Positions 2,923 to 27,792 of a stretch of 29,358 bases of DNA are shown here, in pieces. Position 1 is the stretch's first letter. Each line of letters begins with the position of its first letter. Position numbers and translations under genes: made by a program. The stretch comes from a virus, in the IMG/VR virus record IMGVR_UViG_3300042876_000012, positions 1 to 29,358 of that record. The stretch is one strand, 5' to 3'. A model generated the notes under the pieces. That model searched no databases, was not told the origin of the DNA, and saw nothing but the letters and a program-made list of their open reading frames with translations.

Positions 2923-4626
2923 TTAAGTTACCGGTGGTAGTGGATCGGGTGCAAGCTGTAAGATACCTGATAGAGGTTGTGCTTGTGGTACAAATGTACC
3001 GTCAGTTAGTTGAGTTTCGTTAGTGTTATTTATGAAGCTAGTTGTTTGTGTAGCTTCTGTCGTAGCAAAGCCAGTCTCTGTTCTAACGTTAGCAGAGATA
3101 CGAACCCAAAGTTGACCATCCCAGCGATATAACAATTGTGGGAAGTAATCGATGCGTAAGAAGTAATCTCCAACTTGTGGATTCTGCGGGAATGCAATAC
3201 CAGCACCTGTAGGGTATCCGTTTGGTGCTTCGCCTGTGCCATCTAGATATCCAGTAGTATAGCCAAATGTGCGTGGACTTGAGCGTACAATAAATTGATA
3301 TGCGGGATCGCAGTCTGCACGATAGTCCATTTCTTGTGTAATGTCACCGGTGAACCCAGTTGCCTCAGGATCTTGGTCGGCAGTAGCGTATGTATTGTCA
3401 GCAGTACCATAAGGGCCAGTGATTTGTCCCATAGAAAATACACTTAGTACAGGAGTCCCTTCGAGAGCACCGCTTCCGTTTCCGATCATCGTAGGAGCGA
3501 TCATCGCTGACTCAATGTTGACTGTACTGAAGGCAGTGATTTGATTGATATCAGCGTCAGCAGTCATATCCCAAATGCTCATTGCCACTTCTCTCGGTAT
3601 TCTAATTGCAGGACTAGCATTTACAAAGTTATTGTTTTGAACCATTACTACTTGTCCAGCAGCAATTGGTCCGCCACCTACACTCGTATTGACATTTACA
3701 GGTGGTGCAGGCTGATTGTACTTTCCTGACAACGTGTTGTTCGTTGAGAACTCACCGTATGTAGGGACAATGTACAACTTGCTTCTATCGTAGCCAGATT
3801 TAGGCAATTGACGTTGTGCTTCTTGTAATGCAGCATCGTTAATTTTAATATTCTTATTGTATGTAGCCAAGATATCACTCAAACTTCCATCGGTTACTAA
3901 TTCAAAATATGCAGGATCAGGTGGAGTAATACCTACAGGTACATCCTGAGTAGTCTTGTAAATCTTGTCACCGTATGTGATTGTGTAACCTGCAGGATAT
4001 GTCTTTGTCGCATCCCATAAACCAAGATAGTTGTCTTGTTGTACAGGTTCAGAAAGAATCTGACTGAATTCTTGACTATCTACTAACGGCTCACATTTGA
4101 TTCGCCACAAGTGAGGATACCAAGTTTGTGTAAAGCCTTCACTCGCATAATTACTATCAGTGATTTGGTAGAAACGTTTCAATGCGGTTGGAATCTTTTC
4201 GTCTAGTGGATTATAATCAAGTAAATGGGGTAGTTCTAATACATCACCAACCATTAACTTACGACCAACTAAGTCAATCATATCATTATAATGGATAGTA
4301 ATAAAGATAATGTCGTTGTTTAAGAAAAGTCCAAACTGACTCAAATCAAAGTCTAAGTTCTGTACATTATAATGTCCACGTAAACGATAGATATTAGTAT
4401 CATACTTTCTATCACGGTTTTCTAAGAATAACAAATCTTGAATATTTGTTGGGCTTTCATTAGCGTATTCTGGTTGAGTATAATCAATTGAAGGACCAGT
4501 ATTAGGACCTAGATATTTGTGAATGTACAAGTCTGTCCCACCCACAGTGAATTGTTCGGATATGGTTCTATCCAAAAAACGGTAATCGTTTTGCTTATTT
4601 GGGCGGTAAAGGGATAATCTTGGCAT
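2923..4626 (-). CDS. gp14: Neck protein, T4 gp14-like, with inserted surface modules
   Basis: Residues 1-190 carry the gp14 pattern: LYRPNKQNDYRFLDRTI at the start, then SQFGLFLNNDIIFIT (97-111) and MVGDVLELPHLLDYNPLD (125-142). This parallels the T4 gp14 stretch NFGMQVQDEVTL...EGDLIYFP...YDPF. gp14 joins the head to the tail. The protein has 567 residues against 256 in T4. Residues about 203-247 (LWDATKTYPAGYTITYGDKI and on) look like a CBM5/12 chitin-binding-type module, and about 486-515 is another Trp/Tyr-rich strand set. It is the first gene of the minus-strand operon. The only in-frame start is the ATG at 4626, five bases after a late promoter octamer, so no Shine-Dalgarno is available. 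Confidence 0.8.
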   Translation of the reverse strand: MPRLSLYRPNKQNDYRFLDRTISEQFTVGGTDLYIHKYLGPNTGPSIDYTQPEYANESPTNIQDLLFLENRDRKYDTNIYRLRGHYNVQNLDFDLSQFGLFLNNDIIFITIHYNDMIDLVGRKLMVGDVLELPHLLDYNPLDEKIPTALKRFYQITDSNYASEGFTQTWYPHLWRIKCEPLVDSQEFSQILSEPVQQDNYLGLWDATKTYPAGYTITYGDKIYKTTQDVPVGITPPDPAYFELVTDGSLSDILATYNKNIKINDAALQEAQRQLPKSGYDRSKLYIVPTYGEFSTNNTLSGKYNQPAPPVNVNTSVGGGPIAAGQVVMVQNNNFVNASPAIRIPREVAMSIWDMTADADINQITAFSTVNIESAMIAPTMIGNGSGALEGTPVLSVFSMGQITGPYGTADNTYATADQDPEATGFTGDITQEMDYRADCDPAYQFIVRSSPRTFGYTTGYLDGTGEAPNGYPTGAGIAFPQNPQVGDYFLRIDYFPQLLYRWDGQLWVRISANVRTETGFATTEATQTTSFINNTNETQLTDGTFVPQAQPLSGILQLAPDPLPPVT

Positions 4627-4631
4627 ATACT

Positions 4632-4639
4632 TATTTATC
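4632..4639 (-). promoter_or_regulatory. Late promoter octamer for gp14-gp15-Nudix
   Basis: On the minus strand the sequence reads GATAAATA, then AGTAT, then ATG. The octamer matches the T4 late promoter (TATAAATA, about -13 to -6), which would put the transcription start on the A of the gp14 start codon. Confidence 0.7.
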
Positions 4640-4656
4640 GCTCAACACCCAAGAAC

Positions 4657-4685
4657 TTGACAATAAATCGAGCATGTGTTATACT
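4657..4685 (+). promoter_or_regulatory. Strong sigma70-type promoter of the small-gene operon
   Basis: TTGACA at 4657-4662, a spacer of exactly 17 bp, and TATACT at 4680-4685. TG at 4677-4678 supplies an extended -10 element. Initiation near 4692 leaves a short leader with the Shine-Dalgarno AAAGGAG before the ATG at 4713. This is host-polymerase early or middle promoter style and lies back to back with the divergent gp14 late promoter. Confidence 0.85.
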
Positions 4686-4712
4686 TGATAAATCAATGTA
4701 AAGGAGCACCTC

Positions 4713-5900
4713 ATGGCTACACGCAAACGCAATTCAGAAGACCATTCTCAGGTCAAAGCACTGAACCCAAAAAACCCAGACACTAAGTACATGGGTGAGG
4801 AACCTCTGTACGTTATTCAGCCTGAAAGTGATAGTCGTATCTCTTCCCTTTCTGCTGGTTTCTCTTGGTACAACTGGTTTTATGGTAAGAAAGATGCAAA
4901 AGAACTGATGTGTCAGTTCCTAGACTTCACTGGTCGTGTCCAAGAAGCTAAAACAATGCGAAAAGTTGCAGACGGTGAGTTTGTCAACACTTACTGCTGG
5001 CTCGCACGAATGAAATTGCGTGGTCTTGAGACTACCGTAGATGAAGAAACCAAACTTGAGGAAGAAATTACTCGGTTGTTGAAGACCCACACTGCACCTG
5101 AATTCAAAGAAGCCAGTGCCACTGGTGGTGCAAAGAAAGAAGTTGTAGTAGTTGAGGCTGCTCGTCCAAACATTCAAGAAATATTGCGAGACAAAGCAAA
5201 AGATGCCGCAGGTGAGCTTGAAGGGGTGTTCGATGAATTCATCACTGAGGGCAAGACAAAGACAAAGACAATGGATCTTGTTGCACGATGCAACGTGATG
5301 CCACAACACATTGGATTGATTTCTGATGTTTGGAAGAAAAAACAAGCTGAATTTACAGAATTGCAAGAAGGCAAAGACAAGCAATTGGTCGAGGGTTATA
5401 GTCACCTCACTAAAATTCAAGTACGAAACACTCTCAAATTTATTGACCAAGTTCTCACTGACTTGAACGCATACATTTCAGTCAAGAAAGCAAGCAAGGC
5501 TCCTCGTCAACGTAAGGCTGTGCCCGTTGAAAAGATCGTGGCCAAGTTGAAGTACTTGAAGACATTCAAAGATACTGCCGCAAAACTTGACTTGGTGTCT
5601 ATCAGTCCTGTAAAACTGCATGGTGCAAGCGAAGCATGGGTCTATGACACTGCAAAGCGCAAACTGCATCACTACCTTGCTGATGAATACTCTAAGAGTT
5701 TCACTGTTAAGGGCAATACTTTGCTCGGCTTTGATACTGCAAAGAGTGAGGTTAAGACACTGCGTAAGCCCGGTGAGCAAATCAAAGAAATTATGGGTAG
5801 TAAGCCCGCGGCTCGTAAGTACTTTACTGATATCAAAGCAGTTGCGACTACCCCTAACGGTCGTTTCAACGAAGCTATGATTCTACTGAAAGCATTCTAA
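4713..5900 (+). CDS. Conserved-looking phage protein of unknown function
   Basis: A 395-residue protein with a strong Shine-Dalgarno (AAAGGAG) and a consensus sigma70 promoter, first gene of the early-type operon. The N-terminus is polar (MATRKRNSEDHSQ). Residues about 48-105 hold an aromatic, helical segment (FSWYNWFYGKKDAKELMCQF, WLARMKLRGLE). The middle is helical and charged (about 110-240). A Lys/Arg-rich stretch (KKASKAPRQRKAVP, about 257-270) separates it from a C-terminal half that reads like a small globular domain (KLHGASEAWVYDTAKRKLHH). The basic linker makes nucleic-acid binding plausible, but I recognise no family. Its stop overlaps the next start by one base (TAATG), indicating translational coupling. 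Confidence 0.8.
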   Translation: MATRKRNSEDHSQVKALNPKNPDTKYMGEEPLYVIQPESDSRISSLSAGFSWYNWFYGKKDAKELMCQFLDFTGRVQEAKTMRKVADGEFVNTYCWLARMKLRGLETTVDEETKLEEEITRLLKTHTAPEFKEASATGGAKKEVVVVEAARPNIQEILRDKAKDAAGELEGVFDEFITEGKTKTKTMDLVARCNVMPQHIGLISDVWKKKQAEFTELQEGKDKQLVEGYSHLTKIQVRNTLKFIDQVLTDLNAYISVKKASKAPRQRKAVPVEKIVAKLKYLKTFKDTAAKLDLVSISPVKLHGASEAWVYDTAKRKLHHYLADEYSKSFTVKGNTLLGFDTAKSEVKTLRKPGEQIKEIMGSKPAARKYFTDIKAVATTPNGRFNEAMILLKAF

Positions 5901-6256
5901 TGAACAAACGAATACTAGAACTTTTGAATGAAGCATGTCGCTATGCGTATGAACAAAATCCAGGAGAAAATTCATATGGTCGCCCAGTAAATGAGAACAA
6001 GTATAATCAAGACCGTGATACCAAGTTCGCCGAGTTGATTGTTCGAGAATGTATGAATATTGCAGATGGGCAGAAAAAGTATGTTGAGGATATGGTAGTG
6101 TTCAATGAACATGATGCCAATTGGAATAGAGCAAGAATACAGCAAAGCCAACAAATTGTAGATAAGATTAAACAACATTTCGGAGTTGAAGAACCTCCAG
6201 TGGATAATGTAGATAGAATTTTGCGAACAGTAAGAACTAGAGGAACTAAAGAATGA
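5900..6256 (+). CDS. Small phage protein of the 'KFAELIVREC / IKQHFGVE' type, function unknown
   Basis: 118 residues, overlapping the preceding stop by one base and the following start by four. It contains KFAELIVRECMNIADGQ and ends its helical body with KIKQHFGVE. These two phrases recur in small uncharacterised proteins of many tailed phages, usually in early accessory regions. It is strongly charged and helical, with no signal or membrane segment. The position in the sigma70-driven operon points to an early function such as host takeover or metabolism, but nothing in the sequence names one. Confidence 0.75.
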   Translation: MNKRILELLNEACRYAYEQNPGENSYGRPVNENKYNQDRDTKFAELIVRECMNIADGQKKYVEDMVVFNEHDANWNRARIQQSQQIVDKIKQHFGVEEPPVDNVDRILRTVRTRGTKE

Positions 6257-6561
6257 AGATGTATATTTGCATTAAAGACGATATCCCAGTGGGTATCGCA
6301 ATGAACTCTGCGGCACATGCAGGATTGATGTGTCATTTGCAATATGAATGTAAGGAGCACTATGAAACTTGGCTCAAAAAGAGTTTCAAGAAAGTTACTT
6401 GCGCTGTTACGCCCGCAGAGTTTGCAATGCTGAAGGAAGTAAGCGATAATATCATTGTGACTGAAAGCCGACTGGACGGCAAAGAGGTAGCAATCGTGCT
6501 ATCACCCAGACCCGAAACAGACTATCCTGAGTTTGTTTCATTACTTAAACTATGGAAATAA
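6253..6561 (+). CDS. Pth2 / DUF2000-like small protein
   Basis: 102 residues. The opening MKMYICIKDDIPVGIAMNSAAHAG has the form of the peptidyl-tRNA hydrolase 2 / DUF2000 fold: a first strand, then a glycine turn and a helix with conserved Ala-Ala-His-Ala. Later parts also fit the fold: a strand KKVTCAVTPAEF, then IIVTESRLDGKEVAIVLSPR. If it is a true Pth2 it would release peptides from stalled peptidyl-tRNA. The lysine after the first glycine turn that Pth2 enzymes use is not clearly present, so activity is uncertain. It overlaps its upstream neighbour (ATGA) and abuts the MazG-like gene, which indicates one transcript. Confidence 0.6.
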   Translation: MKMYICIKDDIPVGIAMNSAAHAGLMCHLQYECKEHYETWLKKSFKKVTCAVTPAEFAMLKEVSDNIIVTESRLDGKEVAIVLSPRPETDYPEFVSLLKLWK

Positions 6562-6999
6562 ATGAGCAATATCGATCTAAACAAATACAAACAATTCGTA
6601 GAGGCTGTAACCAGCAAAGCAAGCAATGACTTGGCTACTCTACATGATCGCCTTGATGAATTGAATCACAACTTTGATCCAGCAACTGATACACAAGGTC
6701 CCAAAGTCAACATTGCATTGTTGATGACCGCATGTTTCGGCTTGGCAGCAGAGTCCGGTGAATTCATTGAAGTGCCCAAGAAGATCATCTTTCAAGGCAA
6801 GCCATTGACTGATGCCGAAGTCTTTCACTTGAAGCGTGAACTTGGTGACGTTATGTGGTACTGGATTAATGCATGTCGTGCATTGAACATTGACCCTAAC
6901 GAAGTCATTGACGAAAACGTGCGTAAATTAGAATCACGTTATCCCGGTGGCACATTCAATCCCCACTATTCAGAGAATCGCAAAGAAGGCGATATCTAA
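6562..6999 (+). CDS. MazG-like nucleotide pyrophosphohydrolase
   Basis: 145 residues with the all-alpha NTP-PPase signature. A helix GLAAESGEFIEVPKKIIFQG supplies the first ExxxE-type acidic pair, and LKRELGDVMWYWINACRALN supplies the ExxD pair. The C-terminal NVRKLESRYPGGTF is the usual end of phage MazG-like proteins. The enzyme should hydrolyse an NTP or dNTP to the monophosphate and pyrophosphate. Known or proposed roles are clearing non-canonical nucleotides or altering ppGpp and nucleotide pools during infection. It begins immediately after the previous stop. Together with the dNMP kinase and Nudix genes it forms the nucleotide-metabolism content of this window. Confidence 0.85.
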   Translation: MSNIDLNKYKQFVEAVTSKASNDLATLHDRLDELNHNFDPATDTQGPKVNIALLMTACFGLAAESGEFIEVPKKIIFQGKPLTDAEVFHLKRELGDVMWYWINACRALNIDPNEVIDENVRKLESRYPGGTFNPHYSENRKEGDI

Positions 7000-7000
7000 A

Positions 7001-7225
7001 ATGCAACTCTGGAGTAAAGAAACTAATCTGTATTTGTTTACTCCAGAGGAGTATGAACAACTACCCTACGGATTTGAACTTACTTGCATCGACGGAACTA
7101 CATCTAAAAAAGACATAGATAAAGTTGACGGTGATACAAGATTTGGTCACCTGGCATTCGGTGTCACTGATCCGTGGAATCATCCACTCAAAGACTTGTT
7201 CTTGGTTTTCAAGATCAAAGAATGA
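7001..7225 (+). CDS. Small unknown protein
   Basis: 74 residues from the ATG at 7001, which has GAAGG about 12 bases upstream and follows the MazG-like stop by one base. The same frame runs upstream to 6947, but that part lies inside the MazG-like gene. The sequence (LWSKETNLYLFTPEEYEQLP, then GHLAFGVTDPWNHPLKDLFL) is globular and aromatic without cysteines or membrane segments. No family is recognised. It belongs to the early-type operon by spacing. Confidence 0.65.
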   Translation: MQLWSKETNLYLFTPEEYEQLPYGFELTCIDGTTSKKDIDKVDGDTRFGHLAFGVTDPWNHPLKDLFLVFKIKE

Positions 7226-7226
7226 T

Positions 7227-7857: not shown

Positions 7858-7865
7858 GATAAATA
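7858..7865 (+). promoter_or_regulatory. Late promoter octamer for gp13
   Basis: GATAAATA, 17 bases before the gp13 ATG at 7883, with AGGA at 7872-7875 as a modest ribosome binding site. It matches the T4-type late octamer found before most virion genes here. Confidence 0.75.
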
Positions 7866-7882
7866 TACACATAGGAACACAT

Positions 7883-8668
7883 ATGGCAGCAAATATATTA
7901 TCTACCCCGAATGGAATGACCCTCGATGAATTGAAACAGGAATTATACAAGAACATTCGATACCGCTTAGGAGATGGTATTGTTGATCTTGAGATTGACC
8001 CTGAACATTTCGAAGCGGCATATAACTACACAATCAAGTTATATAGACAAAGGGCTCAAAATGCCACAGCGGAATCATACACATTATTCACCGTGGAAAA
8101 GAACGTAGATGTTTATACACTACCTCAAGAGTTTATCAACGTCCGTTGTTTATATAGACGCACAATTGGATTAGAGACTGGTCCAGGATCCAGTGCATTT
8201 GATCCGTTCAGTTCCGCGATTTTAAATACATACCTATTGAACTATAACTTTGCTGGTGGTATGGCAACATACGACTTCTATGCAGGTTATGTTGAATTAG
8301 CAGCACGTATGTTTGGTGGCTATGTAGTCTATACATTTGATCCTGTCACTAAGGTATTACGTATTGTTCGTGATCCTAAAGCAACAGGTGAGCAGGTACT
8401 TATTTGGGCTGACGTCCAGCGTACCGAAGAAGTACTATTACAAGACCCGGGTGCAGGTGTTTGGATTGGTGACTATATTTTGGCTACCCTTAAAGGCATC
8501 ATCGGTGAAGCACGTGAAAAGTTTGGTACTATCGCAGGGCCAGGTGGTGGAACTACATTGAACGGTACTGCTATGAAAGCAGAAGCTAAACAATTACAAG
8601 AACAATTATTATTGGACTTGAAGAACTATGTAGATTACAGCCAACCACTAACATGGATTCAAGGGTAA
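7883..8668 (+). CDS. gp13: Neck protein, T4 gp13-like
   Basis: 261 residues. The start LDELKQELYKNIRYRLGDGIVDLEI parallels T4 gp13 ([20 protein letters not shown]). The next helix AAYNYTIKLYRQRAQNATAE is the conserved second helix. The C-terminal PGGGTTLNGTAMKAEAKQLQ parallels T4 gp13 [20 protein letters not shown]. gp13 binds the portal side of the neck and works with gp14 in joining head to tail. Length is close to cyanophage-type gp13 and shorter than T4 (309). Its partners gp14 and gp15 are on the opposite strand 3 kb away, so the usual 13-14-15 cluster is split. Driven by its own late promoter. Confidence 0.85.
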   Translation: MAANILSTPNGMTLDELKQELYKNIRYRLGDGIVDLEIDPEHFEAAYNYTIKLYRQRAQNATAESYTLFTVEKNVDVYTLPQEFINVRCLYRRTIGLETGPGSSAFDPFSSAILNTYLLNYNFAGGMATYDFYAGYVELAARMFGGYVVYTFDPVTKVLRIVRDPKATGEQVLIWADVQRTEEVLLQDPGAGVWIGDYILATLKGIIGEAREKFGTIAGPGGGTTLNGTAMKAEAKQLQEQLLLDLKNYVDYSQPLTWIQG

Positions 8669-8677
8669 CCTAAACAC

Positions 8678-8706
8678 TTTCTTTTGTCACACTCCTGTCT
8701 TATACT
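8678..8706 (+). promoter_or_regulatory. Probable sigma70-type promoter for the dNMP kinase
   Basis: TATACT at 8701-8706 is identical to the -10 box of the early operon. A weak -35 (TTTCTT, 8678-8683) lies at 17 bp. Transcription from about 8713 would leave the Shine-Dalgarno TAGGAG (8716-8721) in a short leader before the ATG at 8730. No late octamer is present. Confidence 0.5.
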
Positions 8707-8729
8707 AAGTATCTGATAGGAGTTTCCAC

Positions 8730-9362
8730 ATGATTATAGGCGTAACAGGCTTTATTGGATCTGGTAAAGATACAGTTGCTGATTACTTGACAACCTTTCA
8801 CGGGTTCAAACGTGTGAGTTTTGCATCTTCACTCAAAGATGCAGTTTCAGCCGTGTTTGGTTGGGACAGAGAATTGCTAGAGGGCTCAACAAAGACTAGC
8901 AGAGAATGGCGTGAACAGAAGGATGTATGGTGGAGTGAACGATTGGGGATGGAAGTAACACCTCGATGGGTTTTACAATACTGGGGCACTGACGTACTCA
9001 GAAATCATTTTCATACAGATATCTGGGTTGCTAGTGTAGAGAACAAACTACGACAAACCAAAGACAACATCGTTATTACTGACTGTAGATTTGAGAACGA
9101 AGTTAATGCAATCAAGAACGTAGGTGGTGTCACGATGAGAGTCAACCGAGGTCAACCTCCTGAGTGGTACGATGCTGCGGTGTCCTACAACAAAGGAGAA
9201 GTAGGGAACATGAATTGGTCTATCAGTAAAATGAAACTAGATCGTCATCGTGTTCATGCAAGCGAATATAGCTCAGTAGGTATAAACTACGACTTTTATA
9301 TTGACAACAACGGAACGATTGATGATCTACACAAGCAGATTCAATCAGTAATCAACAGTTAA
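8730..9362 (+). CDS. Deoxynucleoside monophosphate kinase (T4 gp1 type)
   Basis: 210 residues. The N-terminal P-loop GFIGSGKDT (residues 7-15) and the following FHGFKRVSFASSLKDAVSAV are the signature of phage dNMP kinases, which phosphorylate dNMPs to dNDPs for phage DNA synthesis. Also typical are the conserved middle TPRWVLQYWGTDVLRNHF and the strand NIVITDCRFENEVNAIK with an acidic DCRFENE. It has a good Shine-Dalgarno (TAGGAG) and a sigma70-type -10 box rather than a late octamer, as expected for a metabolic gene. Its 3' end overlaps by 18 bases the end of the minus-strand HNH-like gene. Transcription probably ends at the hairpin 9504-9533 inside that gene. Confidence 0.9.
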   Translation: MIIGVTGFIGSGKDTVADYLTTFHGFKRVSFASSLKDAVSAVFGWDRELLEGSTKTSREWREQKDVWWSERLGMEVTPRWVLQYWGTDVLRNHFHTDIWVASVENKLRQTKDNIVITDCRFENEVNAIKNVGGVTMRVNRGQPPEWYDAAVSYNKGEVGNMNWSISKMKLDRHRVHASEYSSVGINYDFYIDNNGTIDDLHKQIQSVINS

Positions 9363-9698
9363 GTCACCTCTTCGCCAAGTTACTTCCTTCTTCTTGACGA
9401 CTTCTACACAGTTTAAACAAATACTACGTAGATTAGTTAGTTGAGTATTTTCTAGATCACCGTCAATATGAAAGACTGTGATCTGGGAAGTAAACAAACT
9501 TTTAAAGCCACATAAGTCACATGTGGCTTTTTTCTTATATCCACTCTTTGACCAGTTGGCCTTTCTGGGCTTCAATTTGTTTTTCTTTCTACCACACTCG
9601 TCACATGATGAGCGATAGTGAGTAATTCCTGCACGGATGTAATTGACTGCACAGTAGTTCTTATTGCAGTTCTGACAGATAGGGCGTTGAATGCTCAT
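9345..9698 (-). CDS. HNH-endonuclease-like zinc protein
   Basis: 117 residues with four CxxC knuckles: C8/C11, C32/C35, C60/C63 and C94/C97. Between the last two lies VFHIDGDLENTQLTNLRSIC. This resembles the HNH core (H..D.D..N....NL...C..C), with His77, Asn84/Asn89 and Cys94/Cys97. The final histidine of a canonical HNH motif is not evident, so nuclease activity is uncertain. The same shape could be a zinc-binding regulator. It is a free-standing gene convergent with the dNMP kinase. The ATG at 9698 is the only start in frame (a TAG closes the frame upstream with no ATG, GTG or TTG between). It lies four bases after a late octamer, so the message should have practically no leader. Confidence 0.7.
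   Translation of the reverse strand: MSIQRPICQNCNKNYCAVNYIRAGITHYRSSCDECGRKKNKLKPRKANWSKSGYKKKATCDLCGFKSLFTSQITVFHIDGDLENTQLTNLRSICLNCVEVVKKKEVTWRRGDLTVDY
9504..9533 (+). terminator. Terminator of the dNMP kinase transcript, inside the HNH-like gene
   Basis: AAAGCCACAT (9504-9513) pairs perfectly with ATGTGGCTTT (9521-9530) across the loop AAGTCAC and runs into a T tract (9528-9533). Polarity fits the plus strand, about 140 bases after the dNMP kinase stop. The same bases encode the KKATCDLCGFK zinc-knuckle region on the minus strand. Confidence 0.65.
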
Positions 9699-9702
9699 TC
9701 TA

Positions 9703-9710
9703 TATTTAGC
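9703..9710 (-). promoter_or_regulatory. Late promoter octamer for the HNH-like gene
   Basis: On the minus strand GCTAAATA is followed by TAGA and then the ATG at 9698. Same family as the other late octamers, one base closer to the start codon than in gp14, gp16 and the 27559 gene. Confidence 0.6.
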
Positions 9711-9756
9711 TAGAAACCTTCGAAGGCACGGCTATACCGCATTTTTTGAATTTTCT

Positions 9757-9764
9757 ACTAAATA
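9757..9764 (+). promoter_or_regulatory. Late promoter octamer for the tail sheath gene
   Basis: ACTAAATA, 55 bases before the sheath ATG, the longest leader apart from that of the octamer at 28891. The leader holds a small hairpin AGGGT-CGTA-GCCCT (9779-9792) and a Shine-Dalgarno AAAGGAA just before the start. The hairpin may stabilise the mRNA of this abundantly needed protein. Confidence 0.65.
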
Positions 9765-9819
9765 ATAGTATGCATTTTAGGGTCGTAGCCCTCATAATTT
9801 TACATAAAGGAAAAACAAA

Positions 9820-12800
9820 ATGGCATTAACATCTCCAGGCGTAGAAGTAACGATCATTGACCAGAGTCAATACTTACCTGCACCAACAAACTCAGTCCCA
9901 CTAATCGTAGTTGCGACAGCACAAAACAAAGCAGATGCGTCTGGTACGGGTGTAGCACAGGCTACTACCGCAGCAAATGCTGGTAAGTTGTATCAAGTTA
10001 CAAGTCAGCGTGACTTGGTTAACTTGTATGGTTCACCGTTCTTCTATACTACTTCTAACGGTACACCAATTCAAGGTTATGAATTGAACGAATACGGTCT
10101 ATTGGCTGCTTATTCTACATTAGGCGTAACAAATCGTGCGTATATCTTACGTGCTGATATCGACTTAGCTAGCTTGGTAGGTCAGACAGGTCGTCCGGTA
10201 GGTACTCCTGATAACGGTACATACTGGTTAGATACCACTACTAGTACATGGGGTATCTATGAATTCAATCAAACTACTGGTAAATTTACACTACAATCAC
10301 CAATCGTGATTTCAGATGCTGCTAACCTAGACGGTAGTGGTGTTCCTTTAGCATCAATCGGCGCTATTGGTGGATATGCAGTTAATGCAATCGATGCAAC
10401 TAGCTTACCAAGCGGTCCTGGCGCAACTTATTTTTATAAGACAACAAATAACGTATGGGTCCCAGTTGGAGAGCGTGAATGGGCAGTAGATTGGCCAACA
10501 ATTCAAGCAACTAGCTCACCATCTACGTTGACTCAGGGTGACTCGTTCAGTATCACCCTAAACGGTAACGTTACTGCAACTATTACTGTGCCTTCTACTA
10601 ATACTCCTGCAGGTGTTGCATCAGCAATTAACGCCTTAGGATGGTCATACATCTCGGCAGCTATTAGAAATAATAGACTTTGTATTTTTGCTAATCAACC
10701 AACTAGTCAGTTTGCTAGTACGGTCACTATTGCAGAAGGTACTGGTACAGTTCTTGATGATTTGGGCATTAATCCTGCTGTGTATAACCAACCAGGTCTA
10801 GTATACGGTACTTCTTCACAGATGCCATTATGGTCAAGCTCTCAAGCATCACCTCACCCAACCGGATCTGTTTGGATTAAGATAGGTTCTGCGGGCAATG
10901 GATTTTCTCCAGTAGTCTCACAATTCAATTCTACTACTAATTCTTGGATTAATAAGAATGTCACTCTTGCAGATTCTGCATGGTCAGCAAACTCATCATT
11001 GGATTCAGCAGGAGGTAAAAACATTCCAGCAGGTTCTATCTATGCTCAGTATGCTTTCGATCAAGATACTGTAACTGGCCCAGGCGATAACCCAGTTTAT
11101 TTCTGGGAAAGAATTGCAACAGGCCCAACAGTAATTTCTGGTAGCGTTATCGATCCAGAATTTACAAATGGTCCTTATACTGGTAATAATGGTCTACGTG
11201 TTCAAGTTAGCTTGCCTGGTTCTGGTACATTAAGCTCAACATATACAGTATTACTAGCCGACAATACTAATGCACTAGATTTTGTTACTGCATGGTCTGC
11301 TGCTGCAATTCCTTACACAACTTGTGTTATTGATTCTACTGGCGCACTACAACTAACTCACACCTTAGGTGGTGAAATTGTATTGGTCGATACTAATCTT
11401 ATCACTGGAGTGTCTACAGGATTGATCGAAGATGCAGGCTTCATTATTGGAACTACACCAGGAGCTTCATACGGACCATCTCTAAACTATTTGTTTAATA
11501 ACGTTGCAACCACTGCAGTAAGCCCATCAACTGGATCGGGTGCAATTATAAGCGGAATTAACACTCGTTACGGTGAGTATATTCTTTTCTCTCCTTCAAC
11601 ATTAGTTTCAGGTGGTTCTGGATATGCAGTTGGTGATTCGATTAAAATCTTAGGTAGTGCTTTAGGTGGTACTAGCCCAGCAAATGATCTATATGTTGTT
11701 GTTGCGTCAGTTTCTGGTGATGCAGTTACATCTGTTGCATATGTTTCTGGAAAACCAGCTCAAGCATATAAAACTCAATTGAGTAATTGGAGAAATTTCG
11801 ACTATATCGCTAACGAAGGTGCTCCAGCAGCAACACCAGCTAACAATACCAATTGGTTCTATAGTGTTATCGATCAAGTTGATATTATGGTTAATGCTGA
11901 TGGTCAGTGGAACGGATACAAGAACGTCAATTATGACTCTTCTGGTTTCCCAACACCATCTGGTTCTAATGCAACTGACCCTAACGGTCCTATCGTATCA
12001 GCAACAGCTCCTACATTACAATCTGATGGAACTGCTCTAGTATACGGTGACTTGTGGATTGATACTAGCGACCTAGAAAACTATCCAGTAATTTCTAGAT
12101 GGCAAGCAGTAGGTGAGCCTGGCAGTCAAGAAGATCAGTGGGTTCTAATTGATAATACTGACCAAACAAGTTCATCTGGCATCACGTTCTTGGATGCACG
12201 TTGGGCTCAAAATGGTACTGTTAGTCCAGTTGATGATCCTATCCCAACGATCAAAACATTATTGACAAGTGATTATCTAGATTTAGATGCACCTAGTCCA
12301 TCTGCATATCCTACAGGTATGTTGTTGTTTAACACACGCCGTTCAGGATACAACGTCAAGCAGTTTAAGACCAACTACTTCAATAATACATCTTTCCCTG
12401 GCGCAAGTTTACCTGCTCAGAGAGATGCATGGGTAACAGTAAGCGGCAATCAGTCAAATGGTTCTCCTTACATGGGTCGTAAGGCACAACGTGCTATGGT
12501 TGTTCAGGCTCTACGTTCAGTAGTTGACACTAACCTAGCAATTCGTGATGAAGACAACTTCTTCAACTTGATGGCTACACCTAACTATCCAGAACTACAA
12601 CCTAACATGGTTGTCTTGAACGCTGATCGCGGTGAGACTGGTTATATTATTGGTGATACACCATTACGTTTAGCGGATGATGCTACTCAAATTCAAGCAT
12701 GGGCTACTAACGCAGCAGGTGCAACAAGCACAGGTGAAGACGGTCTAGTAACTCGCAACACATACATGGGTCTATTCTACCCAAGTGGTATTGCTCCAGA

Positions 12801-13422
12801 CTTGAATGGTAACTTAGTTGCTGTCCCTGCATCACACATGATGTTGCGTACATTCTTGACTAGCGATACTAAGTCTTATCCTTGGTTAGCTGCTGCTGGT
12901 ACTCGTCGCGGTAACATTGACAATGCTACAAACATTGGTTATGTTGATGCACAGACTGGTGAATTCCAAGTCATCAAGACACGTATTGGTATTCGTGATG
13001 TATTGTACACTAACTTCATCAACCCACTAGTGTTCTTCACTGGTATCGGTTTGTTGAACTACGGTAACAAGACAAGCTACAATAGCTCAAGCGCATTGGA
13101 TCGTACTAACGTTGCACGTTTGATCGCTTATATCCGTCGTCAATTGACATTGGCAGCACGTCCTTTCGTATTCGAACCTAACGATTCGTTAACACGCAAG
13201 CAGATTCAAGGTGTTGTTCAATCATTGATGGTTGATCTAGTTGCAAAGCGCGGTCTATACGACTATCTAGTTGTATGTGATGAGAGCAACAACACTCCTG
13301 CTCGTATCGATAGAAACGAACTATGGATTGACGTTGCAGTTGAACCTGTTAAGGCAGCTGAATTCATCTACATCCCAGTTCGTGTATTGAACACAGGTGG
13401 AATCGCTAGCTTAGGTGCTTAA
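9820..13422 (+). CDS. gp18: Tail sheath protein, T4 gp18-like, greatly enlarged
   Basis: Contractile sheath subunit. The N-terminus MALTSPGVEVTIIDQSQYLP is the conserved sheath start. The region from about residue 883 on (YMGRKAQRAMVVQALRSVVD, TFLTSDTKSYPWLAAAGTRRG, FINPLVFFTGIGLLNYGNKT, AYIRRQLTLAARPFVFEPND) is the conserved sheath core that interlocks subunits and holds the tube. At 1200 residues it is nearly twice T4 gp18 (659). The excess lies in residues about 120-860 and contains repeated Trp-rich phrases: GTYWLDTTTSTWGIYEFN near 133, YFYKTTNNVWVPVGEREW near 205, VWIKIGSAGNGF near 350, LWIDTSDLENYP near 743. These read as several beta-rich modules on the outer surface of the sheath. Own late promoter and a good Shine-Dalgarno. 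Confidence 0.93.
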   Translation: MALTSPGVEVTIIDQSQYLPAPTNSVPLIVVATAQNKADASGTGVAQATTAANAGKLYQVTSQRDLVNLYGSPFFYTTSNGTPIQGYELNEYGLLAAYSTLGVTNRAYILRADIDLASLVGQTGRPVGTPDNGTYWLDTTTSTWGIYEFNQTTGKFTLQSPIVISDAANLDGSGVPLASIGAIGGYAVNAIDATSLPSGPGATYFYKTTNNVWVPVGEREWAVDWPTIQATSSPSTLTQGDSFSITLNGNVTATITVPSTNTPAGVASAINALGWSYISAAIRNNRLCIFANQPTSQFASTVTIAEGTGTVLDDLGINPAVYNQPGLVYGTSSQMPLWSSSQASPHPTGSVWIKIGSAGNGFSPVVSQFNSTTNSWINKNVTLADSAWSANSSLDSAGGKNIPAGSIYAQYAFDQDTVTGPGDNPVYFWERIATGPTVISGSVIDPEFTNGPYTGNNGLRVQVSLPGSGTLSSTYTVLLADNTNALDFVTAWSAAAIPYTTCVIDSTGALQLTHTLGGEIVLVDTNLITGVSTGLIEDAGFIIGTTPGASYGPSLNYLFNNVATTAVSPSTGSGAIISGINTRYGEYILFSPSTLVSGGSGYAVGDSIKILGSALGGTSPANDLYVVVASVSGDAVTSVAYVSGKPAQAYKTQLSNWRNFDYIANEGAPAATPANNTNWFYSVIDQVDIMVNADGQWNGYKNVNYDSSGFPTPSGSNATDPNGPIVSATAPTLQSDGTALVYGDLWIDTSDLENYPVISRWQAVGEPGSQEDQWVLIDNTDQTSSSGITFLDARWAQNGTVSPVDDPIPTIKTLLTSDYLDLDAPSPSAYPTGMLLFNTRRSGYNVKQFKTNYFNNTSFPGASLPAQRDAWVTVSGNQSNGSPYMGRKAQRAMVVQALRSVVDTNLAIRDEDNFFNLMATPNYPELQPNMVVLNADRGETGYIIGDTPLRLADDATQIQAWATNAAGATSTGEDGLVTRNTYMGLFYPSGIAPDLNGNLVAVPASHMMLRTFLTSDTKSYPWLAAAGTRRGNIDNATNIGYVDAQTGEFQVIKTRIGIRDVLYTNFINPLVFFTGIGLLNYGNKTSYNSSSALDRTNVARLIAYIRRQLTLAARPFVFEPNDSLTRKQIQGVVQSLMVDLVAKRGLYDYLVVCDESNNTPARIDRNELWIDVAVEPVKAAEFIYIPVRVLNTGGIASLGA

Positions 13423-13463: not shown

Positions 13464-13471
13464 GATAAATA
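13464..13471 (+). promoter_or_regulatory. Late promoter octamer for the tail tube gene
   Basis: GATAAATA, 21 bases before the tube ATG at 13493, with an excellent Shine-Dalgarno CAGGAGA between. Confidence 0.8.
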
Positions 13472-13492: not shown

Positions 13493-14128
13493 ATGGCAAC
13501 AGCCTCACAATCATTGTTTAACATGACCGTAGCATCTGATAATGCTGGCGGCAATCAGGGCTTGCTAATGCCCAAGCTACAGTATCGCTTCAGAGTCAAC
13601 TTTTTGAACATTGGTGCAACTGCTAGTAGCGTAGAATTAACAAAACAAGTCATCGACTGCTCACGTCCTAACGTACAGTTCCAAGAAATTACATTGCCAG
13701 TTTATAACTCAACAATGTACTTGGCTGGTAAGCATCAATGGCAACCATTCACTTGCAACATTCGTGATGATGCAAATGGATCAGTTTCTAAGATCATTGG
13801 TCAGCAACTACAGAAACAAATGGACTTCGTTGAACAAGCATCTGCTGCAACAGGTCAAGACTATAAGTTCCAAACTAACATCGAAATTCTTGATGGTGGT
13901 AACGGTGCTAATGCTCCTGCAGTATTAGAAACATGGGAATTGTATGGTTGCTTCTTACAGACAGCTAACTACAACACATTGAACTATGGTACAAACGAAG
14001 TTGCAACTATTGCGTTGACTATTCGTTTTGATAACGCAGTTCAGTCTCCATTGACTGCTGGTGTTGGTACAAGCGTAGGTCGTGCTTTTGGTGGTGCATC
14101 TACTACTGGTATCGGTTCTGGTCAATAA
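13493..14128 (+). CDS. gp19: Tail tube protein, T4 gp19-like
   Basis: 211 residues, following the sheath gene as gp19 follows gp18 in T4. Typical tube features are the early strand MPKLQYRFRVNFLNIG, then CSRPNVQFQEITLPVYNSTM, a strand pair with KHQWQPFTCNIRDDANGS, a helix QQLQKQMDFVEQ, and the closing strand ETWELYGCFLQTANYNTLNY followed by EVATIALTIRFDNA. Subunits stack as hexamers to form the inner tube through which DNA passes. It is somewhat longer than T4 gp19 (163). The excess includes a Gly/Ser/Thr-rich tail (last 20-25 residues). A separate late promoter and a strong ribosome binding site suggest high output. Confidence 0.9.
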   Translation: MATASQSLFNMTVASDNAGGNQGLLMPKLQYRFRVNFLNIGATASSVELTKQVIDCSRPNVQFQEITLPVYNSTMYLAGKHQWQPFTCNIRDDANGSVSKIIGQQLQKQMDFVEQASAATGQDYKFQTNIEILDGGNGANAPAVLETWELYGCFLQTANYNTLNYGTNEVATIALTIRFDNAVQSPLTAGVGTSVGRAFGGASTTGIGSGQ

Positions 14129-23636: not shown

Positions 23637-23648
23637 TAAGGAAAGAAA

Positions 23649-24278
23649 ATGAAAGTAACATTAGAACTATTGCGCACTATGTGCCCGCACACAAAAACTT
23701 CTATATTAGAAGGGTATGTCGAGCCATTGAATGCTGTAGCTGAATACTATGAAATGACTGCTAATCCTGCAAGATTGGCAGGATTTTTAGCACAGATTGC
23801 ACACGAATCAGGTGGCTTTACCGCAGTTAAAGAAAATTTAAACTATTCTGCAAAGGGTTTGATGAACACATTTAAGAAATATTTCCCCACAGAAGACTTA
23901 GCAAAGCAATATGAACGCAAGCCAGAGAAGATTGCTAATCGTGTTTATGCTAATCGTATGAGTAACGGTGACGAAGCAAGTGGTGATGGATATCGTTTCT
24001 GCGGTCGTGGACTGATTCAATTGACCGGTCGAGCAAACTATACTAAGTTTGCGGAAGACTTGGGTATCAGTATCGAAGAAACAATTAAATATTTAGAGAC
24101 ACCCAATGGTGCCGTATCAAGTGCTGGTTGGTTCTGGGACAATAATAACTTGAACAAGTATTGTGATTCTGGTGATTTTGTGACTCTTACAAAACGTATC
24201 AACGGTGGCACTATCGGCCTAGCAGATAGACAACACCATTTTGACGAAGCAATGCACTTCTTAACAAGTCAAGGTTAA
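23649..24278 (+). CDS. Endolysin, glycoside hydrolase family 19 (chitinase/lysozyme-like)
   Basis: 209 residues with the GH19 pattern. LAGFLAQIAHESGGFTAVKE carries catalytic Glu53 in 'AHESGGF'. The second acidic residue is Glu62 in 'KENLNYSA'. GYRFCGRGLIQLTGRANY (114-131) is the substrate-cleft signature, and KRINGG (182-187) follows. There is no signal peptide, so it would need a holin. It should cut peptidoglycan glycan strands and release virions, or act at entry if virion-bound. A Shine-Dalgarno AAGGAAAG precedes the ATG. It lies between two tail-fibre-type genes and shares their late transcript, with no membrane protein next to it. Confidence 0.9.
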   Translation: MKVTLELLRTMCPHTKTSILEGYVEPLNAVAEYYEMTANPARLAGFLAQIAHESGGFTAVKENLNYSAKGLMNTFKKYFPTEDLAKQYERKPEKIANRVYANRMSNGDEASGDGYRFCGRGLIQLTGRANYTKFAEDLGISIEETIKYLETPNGAVSSAGWFWDNNNLNKYCDSGDFVTLTKRINGGTIGLADRQHHFDEAMHFLTSQG

Positions 24279-24279
24279 T

Positions 24280-26781
24280 ATGGCACAACCAATTTGGAAC
24301 ACCGCAGCTGGGTCAATAGGGGCATTCCCATCTACTATTCCTATGACATTTCAACTGTCAGCATCAGCAGTATTACCTGCTTCTAGTATTAGGTATACAC
24401 TATTGAGTGGTTCTTTGCCACCCGGAGTATCATTCACATCTGATGGATTGATCTATGGTATTCCTGATCTAGTAACAGTTGACACTAAGAGTACATTTAC
24501 TATTAGAGCAACAGACAACTTAAACAGTATTAAAGACAGAACGTTTTCTATAAATGTCTCAGGTAGTGCTATACCTAGTTTTACTACTGCCTCAGGTAGT
24601 TTATTGAATACACAAGATAGTGTTTGGGTTGATATAGATGTTGAATATTCTAATCCTGACCCAACCAATATTGTAGTAATTAAATTACTAGAGGGTACGC
24701 TTCCACCTGGGTTGGAAATAAATGATGCTGGTAATATTAGGGGCTATCCTAATCCACCAACAGTTAGCGTAACATTGCCAGCAGTAATTACTACTGCAAC
24801 AGAAACATCTTCAAGCACTAATTTAATAACATGTGTCAGTACTACTGGATTCACACCGGGTCGTCCAATAATATTTTATGGAGCAGTCTTTGGCAGTGTA
24901 GAACCTAATACTACATATTATGTTAAAAGCATTGAATCTAGTACAACATTCAGTATTTCTGCCACACAGTTTGGACCCGCATTGGCATTGACATATGCTG
25001 TTGGTGTAATGGGTGTTAACTTAATTAGCATATCTGATGGTCAACCTACTATTAGAACTTATCCATTTACATTGAAGCTATCAAGTCTATTAGGTTCTTC
25101 TACTGCATCCTACTCTATTACCGTTATTAATCAAAATACACCAGTAACTCAAGGAGGTCCTGGAAAACAACCTAACACTCGAATTCCTAGTATTCTGAAT
25201 ACTAGACCGTTAAACTTCAATATCACAACTGACCCATACTATGGATACTACATATTGCCACCGGTGTCTCCTTCGACGCCAGCAAATATAGGTACAATCA
25301 AGAGTGGTGATTTCTTTGCTTTCAAAATTATTGGTTATGACTTCGATGGAAGTGATATAACTTATTCTTTCTCGGATTTACCTACAGAACTAACAGGCAA
25401 TACTACTACAGGATGGATAACTGGTACCCCTACGTTGGGATCAGTTGGTATCAGTAATTATAACTTCAGCGTTGCTGTATGGAAGAAAACTAAGCCTTCA
25501 ATCACTACTCAGTATTTCAACTTTCAATATACTGTAAGCAATGAAGTGAACGGTACTATTACTTGGATTACCCCAAGTAGTTTGGGAACCATTCTGAATG
25601 GTACAGTTAGTACGTTAAATGTTCTCGCAGAATCTGATGTTACGTTGCAGTATAAGTTTGTGTCAGGTACACTGCCGCCAAATTTAAGCATAGGTAGTAA
25701 CGGTGAACTAACTGGAATAGTTGCAAATCAACCTACTACTGCATTTTTAAATCAAGGTCAAAGTACAGATTTTACGTTCACAGTTCAGGCATATTCACCT
25801 GAATTTCCGTCAGTTCAATCTACTAAAACTTTCAATGTAACAGTATATCAAGAATTCAGTCAACCAACTGATATACTGTATATTAAGGCGTCTCCTAGTG
25901 TAGAAGATAGAATGATTCTTGACAGCTTATTGTCAGATGAAAATATCATACCTGAAGCTGACTTGTATAGACCATCTGACGTATATTTTGGTAAAGCAAG
26001 TAGCGTAATATACGAACATGCTTATGGCATTTATGCTAGTGGCATCGATCAATACATTGCGTCTGTTACTACTAACCATTATTGGCGCAACATCACTCTA
26101 GGTCAACTAAAGACTGCTGTAGCAAAGAACGATGCTGGTGAAATTATTTATGAAGTAGTTTACAGTGAAATAATTGATAACTTGGTTAATCCTAAGGGAG
26201 TAAGTATCAATAGTCAAATTTATTGGCCTAGACCTATTGATTTGGGACTGGGTCCCTGGTATACTAGTGTCACCGACACATATACTAGCTACGAAGATAT
26301 CCTTGGTCAAGAATATTATACAAGTCTAACCCCCGGTTATGCACGTATCCTTTATCCTAACAGTCTATTCAATATGCGCAATAAAGTTGCGTCTGTGTTG
26401 GGACAAGAATACAATAGTAAATTATTGCCACAGTGGATGACAAGCCAACAGGCAGATGGTAACACTCTGGGTTATACTCAAGCATGGGTTATTGCTTATA
26501 CTAAGCCCGGTAAAGCAGAAACTATCAAGCGCAATATTGAACAAAAATGGGGCTACTTGTTGAATAACCAGTTCGTACCATACACACTAAATCGTATCAA
26601 TTTCCAAATCGATAGATTCACTGTCAATAAGAGTATAACTTACAACTACGATACAAATCTATCACCTCCATCTTGGACAGGATTGCCTAGTGCAACTCCC
26701 TCACCCGATCCACTTGATAGTAAGGACTTTTACGTATTGTTCCCTAGACAAACAATTTTACCAGACAAGACACAATACTAA
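24280..26781 (+). CDS. Tail protein with Ig-like (LPPG) modules
   Basis: 833 residues, starting one base after the endolysin stop. Putative-Ig (He_PIG-type) modules are marked by 'LLSGSLPPGVSFTSDGLIYG' (41-60), 'LLEGTLPPGLEINDAGNIRG' (136-155) and 'VSGTLPPNLSIGSNGELTG' (near 460-480). Between them is the TTYYVKSIESSTTFSIS module (211-227), also present in the structural protein at 1-771. The C-terminal third (about 545-833) is a different, globular domain (DRMILDSLLSDENIIPEADL; later GYTQAWVIAYTKPGKAETIK). Such proteins are usually tail or baseplate appendages that bind carbohydrate or other virion parts. No enzyme motif is seen. Confidence 0.75.
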   Translation: MAQPIWNTAAGSIGAFPSTIPMTFQLSASAVLPASSIRYTLLSGSLPPGVSFTSDGLIYGIPDLVTVDTKSTFTIRATDNLNSIKDRTFSINVSGSAIPSFTTASGSLLNTQDSVWVDIDVEYSNPDPTNIVVIKLLEGTLPPGLEINDAGNIRGYPNPPTVSVTLPAVITTATETSSSTNLITCVSTTGFTPGRPIIFYGAVFGSVEPNTTYYVKSIESSTTFSISATQFGPALALTYAVGVMGVNLISISDGQPTIRTYPFTLKLSSLLGSSTASYSITVINQNTPVTQGGPGKQPNTRIPSILNTRPLNFNITTDPYYGYYILPPVSPSTPANIGTIKSGDFFAFKIIGYDFDGSDITYSFSDLPTELTGNTTTGWITGTPTLGSVGISNYNFSVAVWKKTKPSITTQYFNFQYTVSNEVNGTITWITPSSLGTILNGTVSTLNVLAESDVTLQYKFVSGTLPPNLSIGSNGELTGIVANQPTTAFLNQGQSTDFTFTVQAYSPEFPSVQSTKTFNVTVYQEFSQPTDILYIKASPSVEDRMILDSLLSDENIIPEADLYRPSDVYFGKASSVIYEHAYGIYASGIDQYIASVTTNHYWRNITLGQLKTAVAKNDAGEIIYEVVYSEIIDNLVNPKGVSINSQIYWPRPIDLGLGPWYTSVTDTYTSYEDILGQEYYTSLTPGYARILYPNSLFNMRNKVASVLGQEYNSKLLPQWMTSQQADGNTLGYTQAWVIAYTKPGKAETIKRNIEQKWGYLLNNQFVPYTLNRINFQIDRFTVNKSITYNYDTNLSPPSWTGLPSATPSPDPLDSKDFYVLFPRQTILPDKTQY

Positions 26782-26784
26782 ATA
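26777..26784 (+). promoter_or_regulatory. Late promoter octamer for the 26803 gene
   Basis: ACTAAATA, overlapping the stop codon of the Ig-like tail gene, 18 bases before the ATG; a weak CGGA (26790-26793) is the only ribosome binding site. Confidence 0.65.
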
Positions 26785-26802
26785 TATAACGGAATACAAA
26801 GC

Positions 26803-27546
26803 ATGAGTACAATCAACACAAACGGAATCAACGTAAATTATCCAGTACCTGGAGTTAACAATAACAGCCAAGGCTTTAGAGATAATTTTGCGTCAATCAA
26901 AACTAACTTAGATCAAGCAGCAACTGAATTAACAGACCTGCAAAATAAAGTAGTTGTAAAACAAGCATTGACTGGAACTACGATTAATAATGACATGGCT
27001 AATACACTTATTAGCAACGCATTGACACGCAGCTTCAGAGCAAGTACGAACAATCTAGGTAACGCACTATCTGGTACGGTACTAGTTGATGTGTCTTTAG
27101 GAGACGTTCATTATGGTACAGTTGCAGCCAATAGTAATATAACATTACAGTTTGGTTCATGGGCACCTTCAGGAACTCAGAGCAACGTGCAATTGATTTT
27201 GAACGTCAATGATAGCAACTCTTACATTAATTTTACAGGTACAAACGTTGACTCGACCAAGACTGAGTTAGAGAATTATAGTTCTAATACAGTGTTTGCT
27301 CCTTCAGGTGTAACTCAGTTAGATTATTGCTTTAGTACCATTGATTGTGGTAACACAATCACAGTTGCTCCTACAAATAGACCGCAGAAAGCAACACAAA
27401 TCCCTACTAGAACTCCTGCGAACGTAGGTGTTCGAGGTGATGTAGCAGGTACTATGTGTTCCGATTCAAGCTATCTGTATGTTTGTACCGGTACTTATAA
27501 CGGTTCGACTGCTATTTGGAAAAGAATATCATTAAGTGCATTCTAA
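26803..27546 (+). CDS. Small fibre-like virion protein
   Basis: 247 residues. The start INTNGINVNYPVPGVNNNSQ followed by GFRDNFASIKTNLDQAATEL is a loop plus helix. It resembles in layout the N-terminus of the large fibre (PDADAIRTAFDKVQQNFTEV), perhaps a common docking segment. The body is beta-rich (VLVDVSLGDVHYGTVAANSN, SNVQLILNVNDSNSYINFTG). The C-terminus RGDVAGTMCSDSSYLYVCTG ending in AIWKRISLSAF is the short 'D..y.Y.CtG......W.ri.l' domain found at the ends of many phage fibre and structural proteins. A tail fibre tip, adaptor or head fibre are all possible. Confidence 0.7.
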   Translation: MSTINTNGINVNYPVPGVNNNSQGFRDNFASIKTNLDQAATELTDLQNKVVVKQALTGTTINNDMANTLISNALTRSFRASTNNLGNALSGTVLVDVSLGDVHYGTVAANSNITLQFGSWAPSGTQSNVQLILNVNDSNSYINFTGTNVDSTKTELENYSSNTVFAPSGVTQLDYCFSTIDCGNTITVAPTNRPQKATQIPTRTPANVGVRGDVAGTMCSDSSYLYVCTGTYNGSTAIWKRISLSAF

Positions 27547-27553
27547 CTAAATA
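27546..27553 (+). promoter_or_regulatory. Late promoter octamer for the 27559 gene
   Basis: ACTAAATA, then TTTGA, then the ATG at 27559. A TGA stop in frame immediately before the ATG rules out an earlier start. Same five-base spacing as for gp14 and gp16. Confidence 0.65.
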
Positions 27554-27558
27554 TTTGA

Positions 27559-27792
27559 ATGGAACATCCATTTATTAACGACTTATCTGACAAAACTCTG
27601 GATGAACTCCAGAGTTCGATCTCTGATCTCAATCGTAAGCTCACATATGCTTACCGCACTCGTAATCAGCCCTTGATTAACCAACTTCATATGGCTCTAG
27701 AAAGCTATAGAAAAGAACACACACGGCAAATGGATGATGTAATGAAACAACAGAACATCGACACCCAAGTCAACATTGAAAAGGATAACTGA
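27559..27792 (+). CDS. Small helical protein, function unknown
   Basis: 77 residues, charged and helical (LSDKTLDELQSSISDLNRKL, then YAYRTRNQPLINQLHMALES). It is probably an all-alpha coiled-coil-type protein. Its start lies five bases after a late octamer with no Shine-Dalgarno, whereas the next gene overlaps its stop by one base (TGATG) and has AAAGGA upstream, so the two are translationally coupled. No family identified; late expression is the only functional hint. Confidence 0.7.
   Translation: MEHPFINDLSDKTLDELQSSISDLNRKLTYAYRTRNQPLINQLHMALESYRKEHTRQMDDVMKQQNIDTQVNIEKDN

Follow-up and report, generated by a model that had tools for sequence, protein, structure and literature searches.

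Introduction

The late promoters of bacteriophage T4, served by gp55, gp33 and gp45, carry a conserved octamer that spans positions -13 to -6 (PMC1524935). The virus considered here, a genome fragment of 29,358 bases held as IMG/VR record IMGVR_UViG_3300042876_000012 and referred to in its full length as the window, resembles T4 in its NTAAATA octamer, in the AT-rich initial segment of its late promoters, and in the gp55-family homolog found in its relatives. It differs in what the octamer serves: T4 octamers mostly serve leaders with a Shine-Dalgarno (SD) sequence, and a single start in the whole T4 genome lies 4-6 nucleotides (nt) beyond TAAATA (by our own open reading frame (ORF) calls, that of a 62-amino acid (aa) ORF inside the annotated nrdG stretch), whereas four genes of the window begin 4 or 5 nt beyond it. 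Judged from its sequence, the late octamer of such genes is very probably placed so that their mRNA starts on the A of the ATG, with two modes of translation operating in one late regulon.

Leaderless genes have usually been discussed either as isolated examples from temperate phages or as a characteristic of particular bacteria. The leaderless cI mRNA of phage lambda, the product of a single gene of a temperate phage and not of a late-gene class, is comparable in that it is translated from a 5'-terminal start codon. In bacteria, TA-led leaderless genes have a -10-like element ~10-12 bp before the start codon and no SD (PMC3160421, Zheng et al., 2011); these are sigma-70-type boxes of cellular genomes, whereas the genes described here would be led by a promoter for a phage late sigma factor, and a single type of promoter would serve both modes. 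For phage AR9, leaders of 26-491 nt are described in a paper that also cites an E. coli ribosome study for the statement that phage transcripts are often leaderless (PMC5312081). In titles and the beginnings of abstracts, a scope outside which subscription papers and preprints fell, no description of leaderless late genes of T4-like phages was found.

Results

Four genes of the window, named here by the position of their ATG, carry the octamer at short range (Table 1), and a recount of the gap between the end of TAAATA and the ATG confirmed the spacings given in an earlier sequence-only reading of this DNA (5 nt at 4626, 16140 and 27559, 4 nt at 9698). The 16140 gene is preceded by two overlapping copies of the hexamer, with gaps of 9 and 5 nt to the ATG. 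The same reading had held that none of the four starts can be moved upstream and that no SD is present, and this also stands: in-frame stops lie at -18 (4626), -36 (9698), -15 (16140) and -3 (27559), the interval from stop to ATG is free of ATG, GTG and TTG at all four genes (an ATA codon occurs within it at 4626 and 16140), and none of the SD tetramers AGGA, GGAG, GAGG and AAGG occurs at -20 to -4 of any of them. From the 23 TAAATA hexamers on both strands of the window, 0.033 placements at a gap of 4-6 nt are expected at 28 starts, against the 4 observed (Poisson P(>=4) ~5e-8), and 14 other permutations of the hexamer reached at most 2 such placements each at 25 window starts. The total number of octamers in the window is not above chance, which indicates that the signal is one of position and not of number.

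The same spacing recurs across related genomes. Starts were counted from ORFs in 6 of 12 jumbo-phage records, and in T4 and HTVC008M, because intragenic matches swamp the raw pattern in AT-rich records; the counts omit ORFs shorter than 50 or 60 aa and the final 116 bases of G007, and modes were called from exact TAAATA and the four SD tetramers, so that variant octamers and weak SDs are missed. Among 3340 candidate ATG starts in the six jumbo records, TAAATA ends 4, 5 and 6 nt upstream in 70, 81 and 11 cases (162 in total), followed by 4-9 cases per position (about 6) at gaps of 7-15 nt and a second hump of 14-28 per position at 16-24 nt. An SD accompanies 121 of the 184 starts in the second hump and just 5 of the 162 at short range. 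The octamer-to-ATG distance is thus bimodal in these six related records, with a short-gap peak at 4-5 nt, in agreement with the sequence-only reading, which had proposed this comparison across related genomes as a check. Permuted hexamers at a gap of 4-6 nt averaged 1.4-2.9 per record, with maxima up to 23 that probably represent the same motif read with a shift of one base. In total, about 20-36 leaderless genes are predicted per large record.

When the raw pattern was scored against a reversed control on both strands (pattern/control), enrichment was clear in G001 (39/15), G003 (59/30), G004 (45/12), G005 (48/33), G006 (49/17), G007 (36/5), G008 (15/7) and HTVC008M (21/10). It was absent in T4 (12/15), Syn9 (7/10), Atu_ph07 (25/47) and PA5oct (33/47), and not clear in S-PM2 (9/6), P-SSM2 (13/11), KVP40 (3/7), Aeh1 (1/5), Phosso (6/5), Cr30 (2/7), SCTP-2 (50/53) and GAP32 (13/30). 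A spacing of N8-15 gave no comparable enrichment, the top excess being 60/39 in G004 and several records falling below their control. HTVC008M, a cultured Pelagibacter phage, has 12 starts at a gap of 4-6 nt; 11 of these lie at exactly 5 nt, including the genes for a DNA end protector, a head closure protein and a baseplate tail tube cap, and between 5.5 and 35.5 kb all 8 of its 8 leaderless calls coincide with annotated starts. It differs from the jumbo phages in being a 147-kb phage filed in Kyanoviridae, and no description of it as leaderless was found in the literature listings.

The leaderless class is nearly confined to ATG. An octamer at a gap of 4-6 nt was found for 107 of 2478 ATG, 1 of 842 GTG, 1 of 1242 TTG, 1 of 615 CTG and 2 of 1874 ATT codons. 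Additionally, the 5' ends of these genes fold weakly (mean of -1.99 kcal/mol over the first 40 nt, versus -3.05 for genes with octamer and SD and -3.66 for SD genes), and the G content of their first codons is 0.132 versus 0.175 in the octamer-plus-SD genes.

Conservation was assessed in the 80 nearest loci each for the 16140-type, 4626-type, HNH-type and tail tube genes and in 24 for the 27559-type, counting distinct upstream sequences after repeated identical ones had been dropped. A gap of 4-6 nt is present in 35 of 45 upstreams of the 16140-type (8 others lie at 14-30 nt and 2 lack the octamer), in 30 of 33 ATG upstreams of the 4626-type (3 have longer leaders) and in 56 of 57 of the HNH-type (1 lacks the octamer), and it is kept while the flanking sequence diverges. 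In the tube control, 72 of the 80 loci have the octamer at 16-23 nt, 5 at 26-35 nt, 3 have none, and not one has it at 4-6 nt. No SD was recognised in 30 of 30 leaderless-class upstreams of the 4626-type, 35 of 35 of the 16140-type and 53 of 56 of the HNH-type. Moreover, all 80 listed tblastn matches of the 16140-type and all 80 of the 4626-type begin at query residue 1, which supports the annotated ATG as the true start. The sequence-only reading had looked to a conserved 5-nt spacing at 4626, 16140 and 27559; this was borne out for the first two and extends to the HNH gene with its 4-nt gap. It was not borne out for 27559, where the arrangement occurs in 2 of the 24 nearest loci, although 4 of 6 ortholog-family members across the larger records, window included, have it. 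Of the contrary outcome envisaged in that reading, normal leaders together with loss of the octamer in homologous phages, the first half was found: the 4626 homologs of Atu_ph07, Phosso, GAP32 and PA5oct carry a leader and an SD, but the octamer is retained (as judged by eye). This suggests gain or loss of the leader behind a single promoter.

In 4 of the 80 4626-type loci (L104, L151, L155 and L157), an ATT appears to serve as the start in place of ATG, behind a strong SD (AAGGAG or GGGAG). These loci have no ATG, GTG or TTG between the in-frame stop and the ATT, and their next in-frame ATG lies 24 codons in. A small ORF whose ATG lies 4-5 nt past the octamer is located upstream in L104, where it was found by script, has 36 codons and overlaps the start, and in L151 and L155 (by eye); a frameshift from this ORF is a possible alternative to initiation at ATT.

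With the octamer at -13 to -6, as in T4, the sixth base past its end becomes +1. Among the SD-led tube promoters of relatives (59 distinct), offset 6 is A in 86% and offset 5 is T in 75%; in the leaderless class with a gap of 5 nt, offset 6 is the A of the ATG, and a pyrimidine precedes the ATG in 87% of 87 genes. From the initiator offset of the SD-led tube promoters, +1 in this class is most likely the A of the ATG. Octamers resembling TATAAATA are present in the window, their first base rarely T, and GA is the commonest dinucleotide before TAAATA both in SD-led (36/96) and in leaderless genes (25/107), indicating one promoter type. The gp55 family (phrog_234) was detected in 8 of 8 records searched, namely 7 of 7 jumbo relatives and HTVC008M. 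Further, five divergent gene pairs carry two back-to-back octamers at leaderless spacing, with start codons separated by 26 bp (HTVC008M), 31 and 49 bp (G007), 40 bp (G006) and 41 bp (G001).

Table 1. Late octamers of the window and the genes that they precede, short-gap genes first.
Feature	Sequence	Coordinates	Strand	Remarks
Late octamer	GATAAATA	4632..4639	-	5 nt before ATG 4626
Virion structural protein gene		2923..4626	-	phrog_11591; predicted leaderless
Late octamer	GCTAAATA	9703..9710	-	4 nt before ATG 9698
HNH-like gene		9345..9698	-	phrog_10822 (E 0.0003); predicted leaderless
Late octamer	AATAAATA	16127..16134	+	5 nt before ATG 16140
160-aa gene		16140..16622	+	phrog_16202 (unknown function); predicted leaderless
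Late octamer	ACTAAATA	27546..27553	+	5 nt before ATG 27559
77-aa gene		27559..27792	+	Predicted leaderless; arrangement weakly conserved
Late octamer, tail tube gene (13493-14128)	GATAAATA	13464..13471	+	SD-led; gap 21; control
Late octamer, tail sheath gene (9820-13422)		9757..9764	+	SD-led; gap 55
Late octamer, head-tail adaptor gene	GATAAATA	7858..7865	+	SD-led; phrog_211; ATG 7883; gap 17
Late octamer, gene 16648	GATAAATA	16621..16628	+	SD-led; ATG 16648; gap 19
Late octamer, gene 17290	CATAAATA	17263..17270	+	ATG 17290; SD AAGG; gap 19
Late octamer, gene 19926	GATAAATA	19898..19905	+	ATG 19926; SD AAGG; gap 20

The names gp14 and gp16, given to the 4626 and 16140 genes in the sequence-only reading, could not be confirmed. 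BLASTP comparisons of the two with T4 proteins gave weak matches (E 0.96 and 0.55), and a PDB sequence search with both candidates gave no match up to E 1. The 16140 protein model consists mainly of two long helices (mean predicted local distance difference test (pLDDT) score of 66.5; a single Foldseek match, E 6.6), and the 4626 protein model has a mean pLDDT of 32.5. The 27559 product gave no PHROG or Pfam match. The sheath protein of the window is less than 60% identical to those of T4-like jumbo phages, its best matches being Phosso, the PA5oct group and Atu_ph07. A search for the host by pattern across genome contigs returned 78 pattern stretches and no relative.

Longer gaps in the window measure 17-21 nt at 7883, 13493, 16648, 17290, 19926 and 26803, the last of which nonetheless also lacks a listed SD tetramer, and 50 nt at 28949. 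The 16648 gene is SD-led in 7 of 7 family members. Within the sheath leader, positions 9779-9792 form a hairpin of the type AGGN...N'CCT. Of 36 distinct sheath leaders in relatives, 35 share this hairpin, and their closing pairs are all complementary (T-A 23, G-C 10, C-G 2); it appears to be a conserved RNA element within the sheath message. The palindrome CCTTCGAAGG (9717..9726) sits between the divergent late promoters of the HNH and sheath genes; CCTTNNAAGG is present in 59 of 59 distinct HNH upstreams, and in 42 of 58 it precedes the HNH octamer by 8-11 nt. Placed back to back with the late promoter of 4626, a promoter that is host-type by sequence (TTGACA-17-TATACT, 4657-4685) faces the gene at 4713 on the plus strand.

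Discussion

In the mechanism proposed here, a gp55-class sigma factor would recognise the NTAAATA octamer as a T4-type late promoter and transcription would start on the A of the ATG. The resulting late mRNAs would have a 5' leader of 0-1 nt, and on them ribosomes would initiate at the 5'-terminal AUG and not by SD pairing. The same promoter type, placed ~11-20 nt further upstream, would provide other late genes with a short leader, usually with an SD. We infer from sequence features where +1 lies, that translation is leaderless and that the leaderless class has a lower output. The central proposal of the sequence-only reading, +1 at the ATG and two modes of translation among late genes, draws good support from conservation, bimodal spacing, the need for ATG, the initiator offset and the divergent pairs; 27559 is its weaker member.

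Several observations weigh against this proposal. First, the 12 jumbo records include 5 in which the raw pattern exceeds its control only slightly (G002 32/27, G009 31/27, G010 28/23, G011 27/23, G012 16/14), and the non-start codon ATA, when near starts, has an octamer at a gap of 4-6 nt in 10 of 1222 cases. Second, a pool of 164 SD-led promoters shows a modest maximum of A (48-51% at offsets 5-7), and the A peak of the SD-led promoters of G004 lies at offset 8. Third, the class with a 4-nt gap (71 genes), which dominates in G007 and among HNH genes, would need +1 one base earlier, and it has no clear pyrimidine preference at -1 and no clean initiator; it is the weakest point of the +1 assignment. 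Finally, a gene on the same strand lies within 40 nt upstream of 74 of the 170 leaderless-class genes, so that these could also be translated from read-through mRNA.

What the split between leaderless and SD-led genes might be for is less clear than the split itself. A role in gene dosage, with SD leaders for mass products and leaderless starts for low-copy ones, is a serious possibility that we would stop short of calling probable. An SD is present at the tube gene in 7 of 7 cases, and at the major capsid, sheath and tube genes in 6 of 6 jumbo genomes, while the leaderless class takes in the large terminase in 4 of 6 jumbo genomes (the one from G002 belongs to phrog_36964), 5 of 6 members of one HNH family (counting the window) and 5 of 5 of another, a 765-aa structural protein in 6 of 6 records and, again counting the window, 6 of 7 genes each of the 4626- and 16140-type. 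Genes of the leaderless class are also less well adapted to the codon usage of sheath, tube and capsid (mean z of -0.11 with n=149, versus 0.39 with n=189; pooled p 1e-6, with p <0.05 in 2 of 6 genomes taken alone, these genomes being related and not independent), which fits a lower output, even if codon bias is an indirect measure. The stoichiometry idea of the sequence-only reading thus agrees with the sheath, tube and capsid on one side and with terminase and HNH genes on the other, but not with the head-tail adaptor, which is SD-led in the window, nor with the low-copy portal: in 5 of 6 jumbo genomes its octamer is followed by a leader in which no SD can be recognised, and in the remaining one the gene is leaderless. 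A family at T4 position 101207, considered as the major capsid protein, was rejected as such and is the portal. The portal genes concerned (G001, G002, G003, G004 and G006; e.g., -60561 in G002) combine a late octamer with a short leader in which no SD tetramer is recognised, possibly a third type of initiation.

About as likely as a dosage role is neutral compaction, in which late genes lose or gain leaders wherever the host tolerates leaderless mRNA and the difference has no regulatory meaning. Such drift would account for the 182 of 2325 reciprocal-best ortholog pairs that are leaderless in one member, for the 3 mode changes on the 16140-type tree (where a single clade, support 92, contains the forms with longer leaders, and two loci lack the octamer) and the 5 on the 4626-type tree (ATT forms counted), and for the octamer with SD leader that distant isolates keep at the 4626 homolog. 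It accounts less readily for the retention of mode by individual genes, given that 129 pairs are leaderless in both members where ~21 would be expected if they were independent (the pairs themselves are not) and that no tube locus has the short gap, or for the difference in codon adaptation between the classes.

A more speculative and rather unlikely extension is that the leaderless late class forms a translational regulon that follows the state of the ribosome (free IF3, 70S or S1) and is IF3-sensitive relative to the SD class. Leaderless starts and AUU starts are both opposed by IF3, and the apparent AUU start behind an SD at 4 of the 80 4626-type loci is a hint of such an IF3-sensitive class. 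Two phage-encoded factors were considered and rejected. Phage-encoded bS21 (PF01165, in 9 of 25 records) does not track the class: among records with leaderless genes it is present in G001, G003, G005, G009 and HTVC008M and absent from G002, G004, G006 and G007, and it is also present in four isolates without the class (PA5oct, Atu_ph07, Phosso and SCTP-2). Phage-encoded IF3 occurs in 3 of the 25 records (Atu_ph07, Phosso and GAP32), none of them a jumbo record and none of them HTVC008M.

It is improbable that the short-gap start reflects a secondary promoter, with the main mRNA arriving from further upstream and translation proceeding by coupling or by AU-rich, S1-mediated initiation without an SD. 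The close same-strand neighbours mentioned above are compatible with such a scheme, as is the 16140 octamer, the first base of which is the last base of the stop codon of the upstream gene. However, the upstream neighbour is on the opposite strand in 60 of the 170 leaderless-class genes, and likewise at 4626 and 9698 in the window, the divergent pairs leave scant room for a further promoter in their 26-49 bp, and the signal is the late hexamer itself and not AT-richness. Chance, whereby AT-rich upstream regions would bring TAAATA close to an ATG, can be practically dismissed even though the window shows no excess of octamers as such, given 4 placements there against 0.03 expected, 162 at three positions in the jumbo records against about 6 per position at 7-15 nt, and a spacing conserved over divergence.

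Earlier work has described leaderless mRNAs, the TA-box criterion (PMC3160421) and T4 late promoters; a T4-like late regulon that appears to be split into leaderless and SD-led halves was not met in the literature searched. If transcription begins at the ATG as proposed here, the octamer would fix the starts of both transcription and translation in this lineage, which matters for annotation, and the mode of transcription would be separated from the mode of translation, offering a clean in vivo test of leaderless initiation. The prediction could be tested in the cultured phage HTVC008M.

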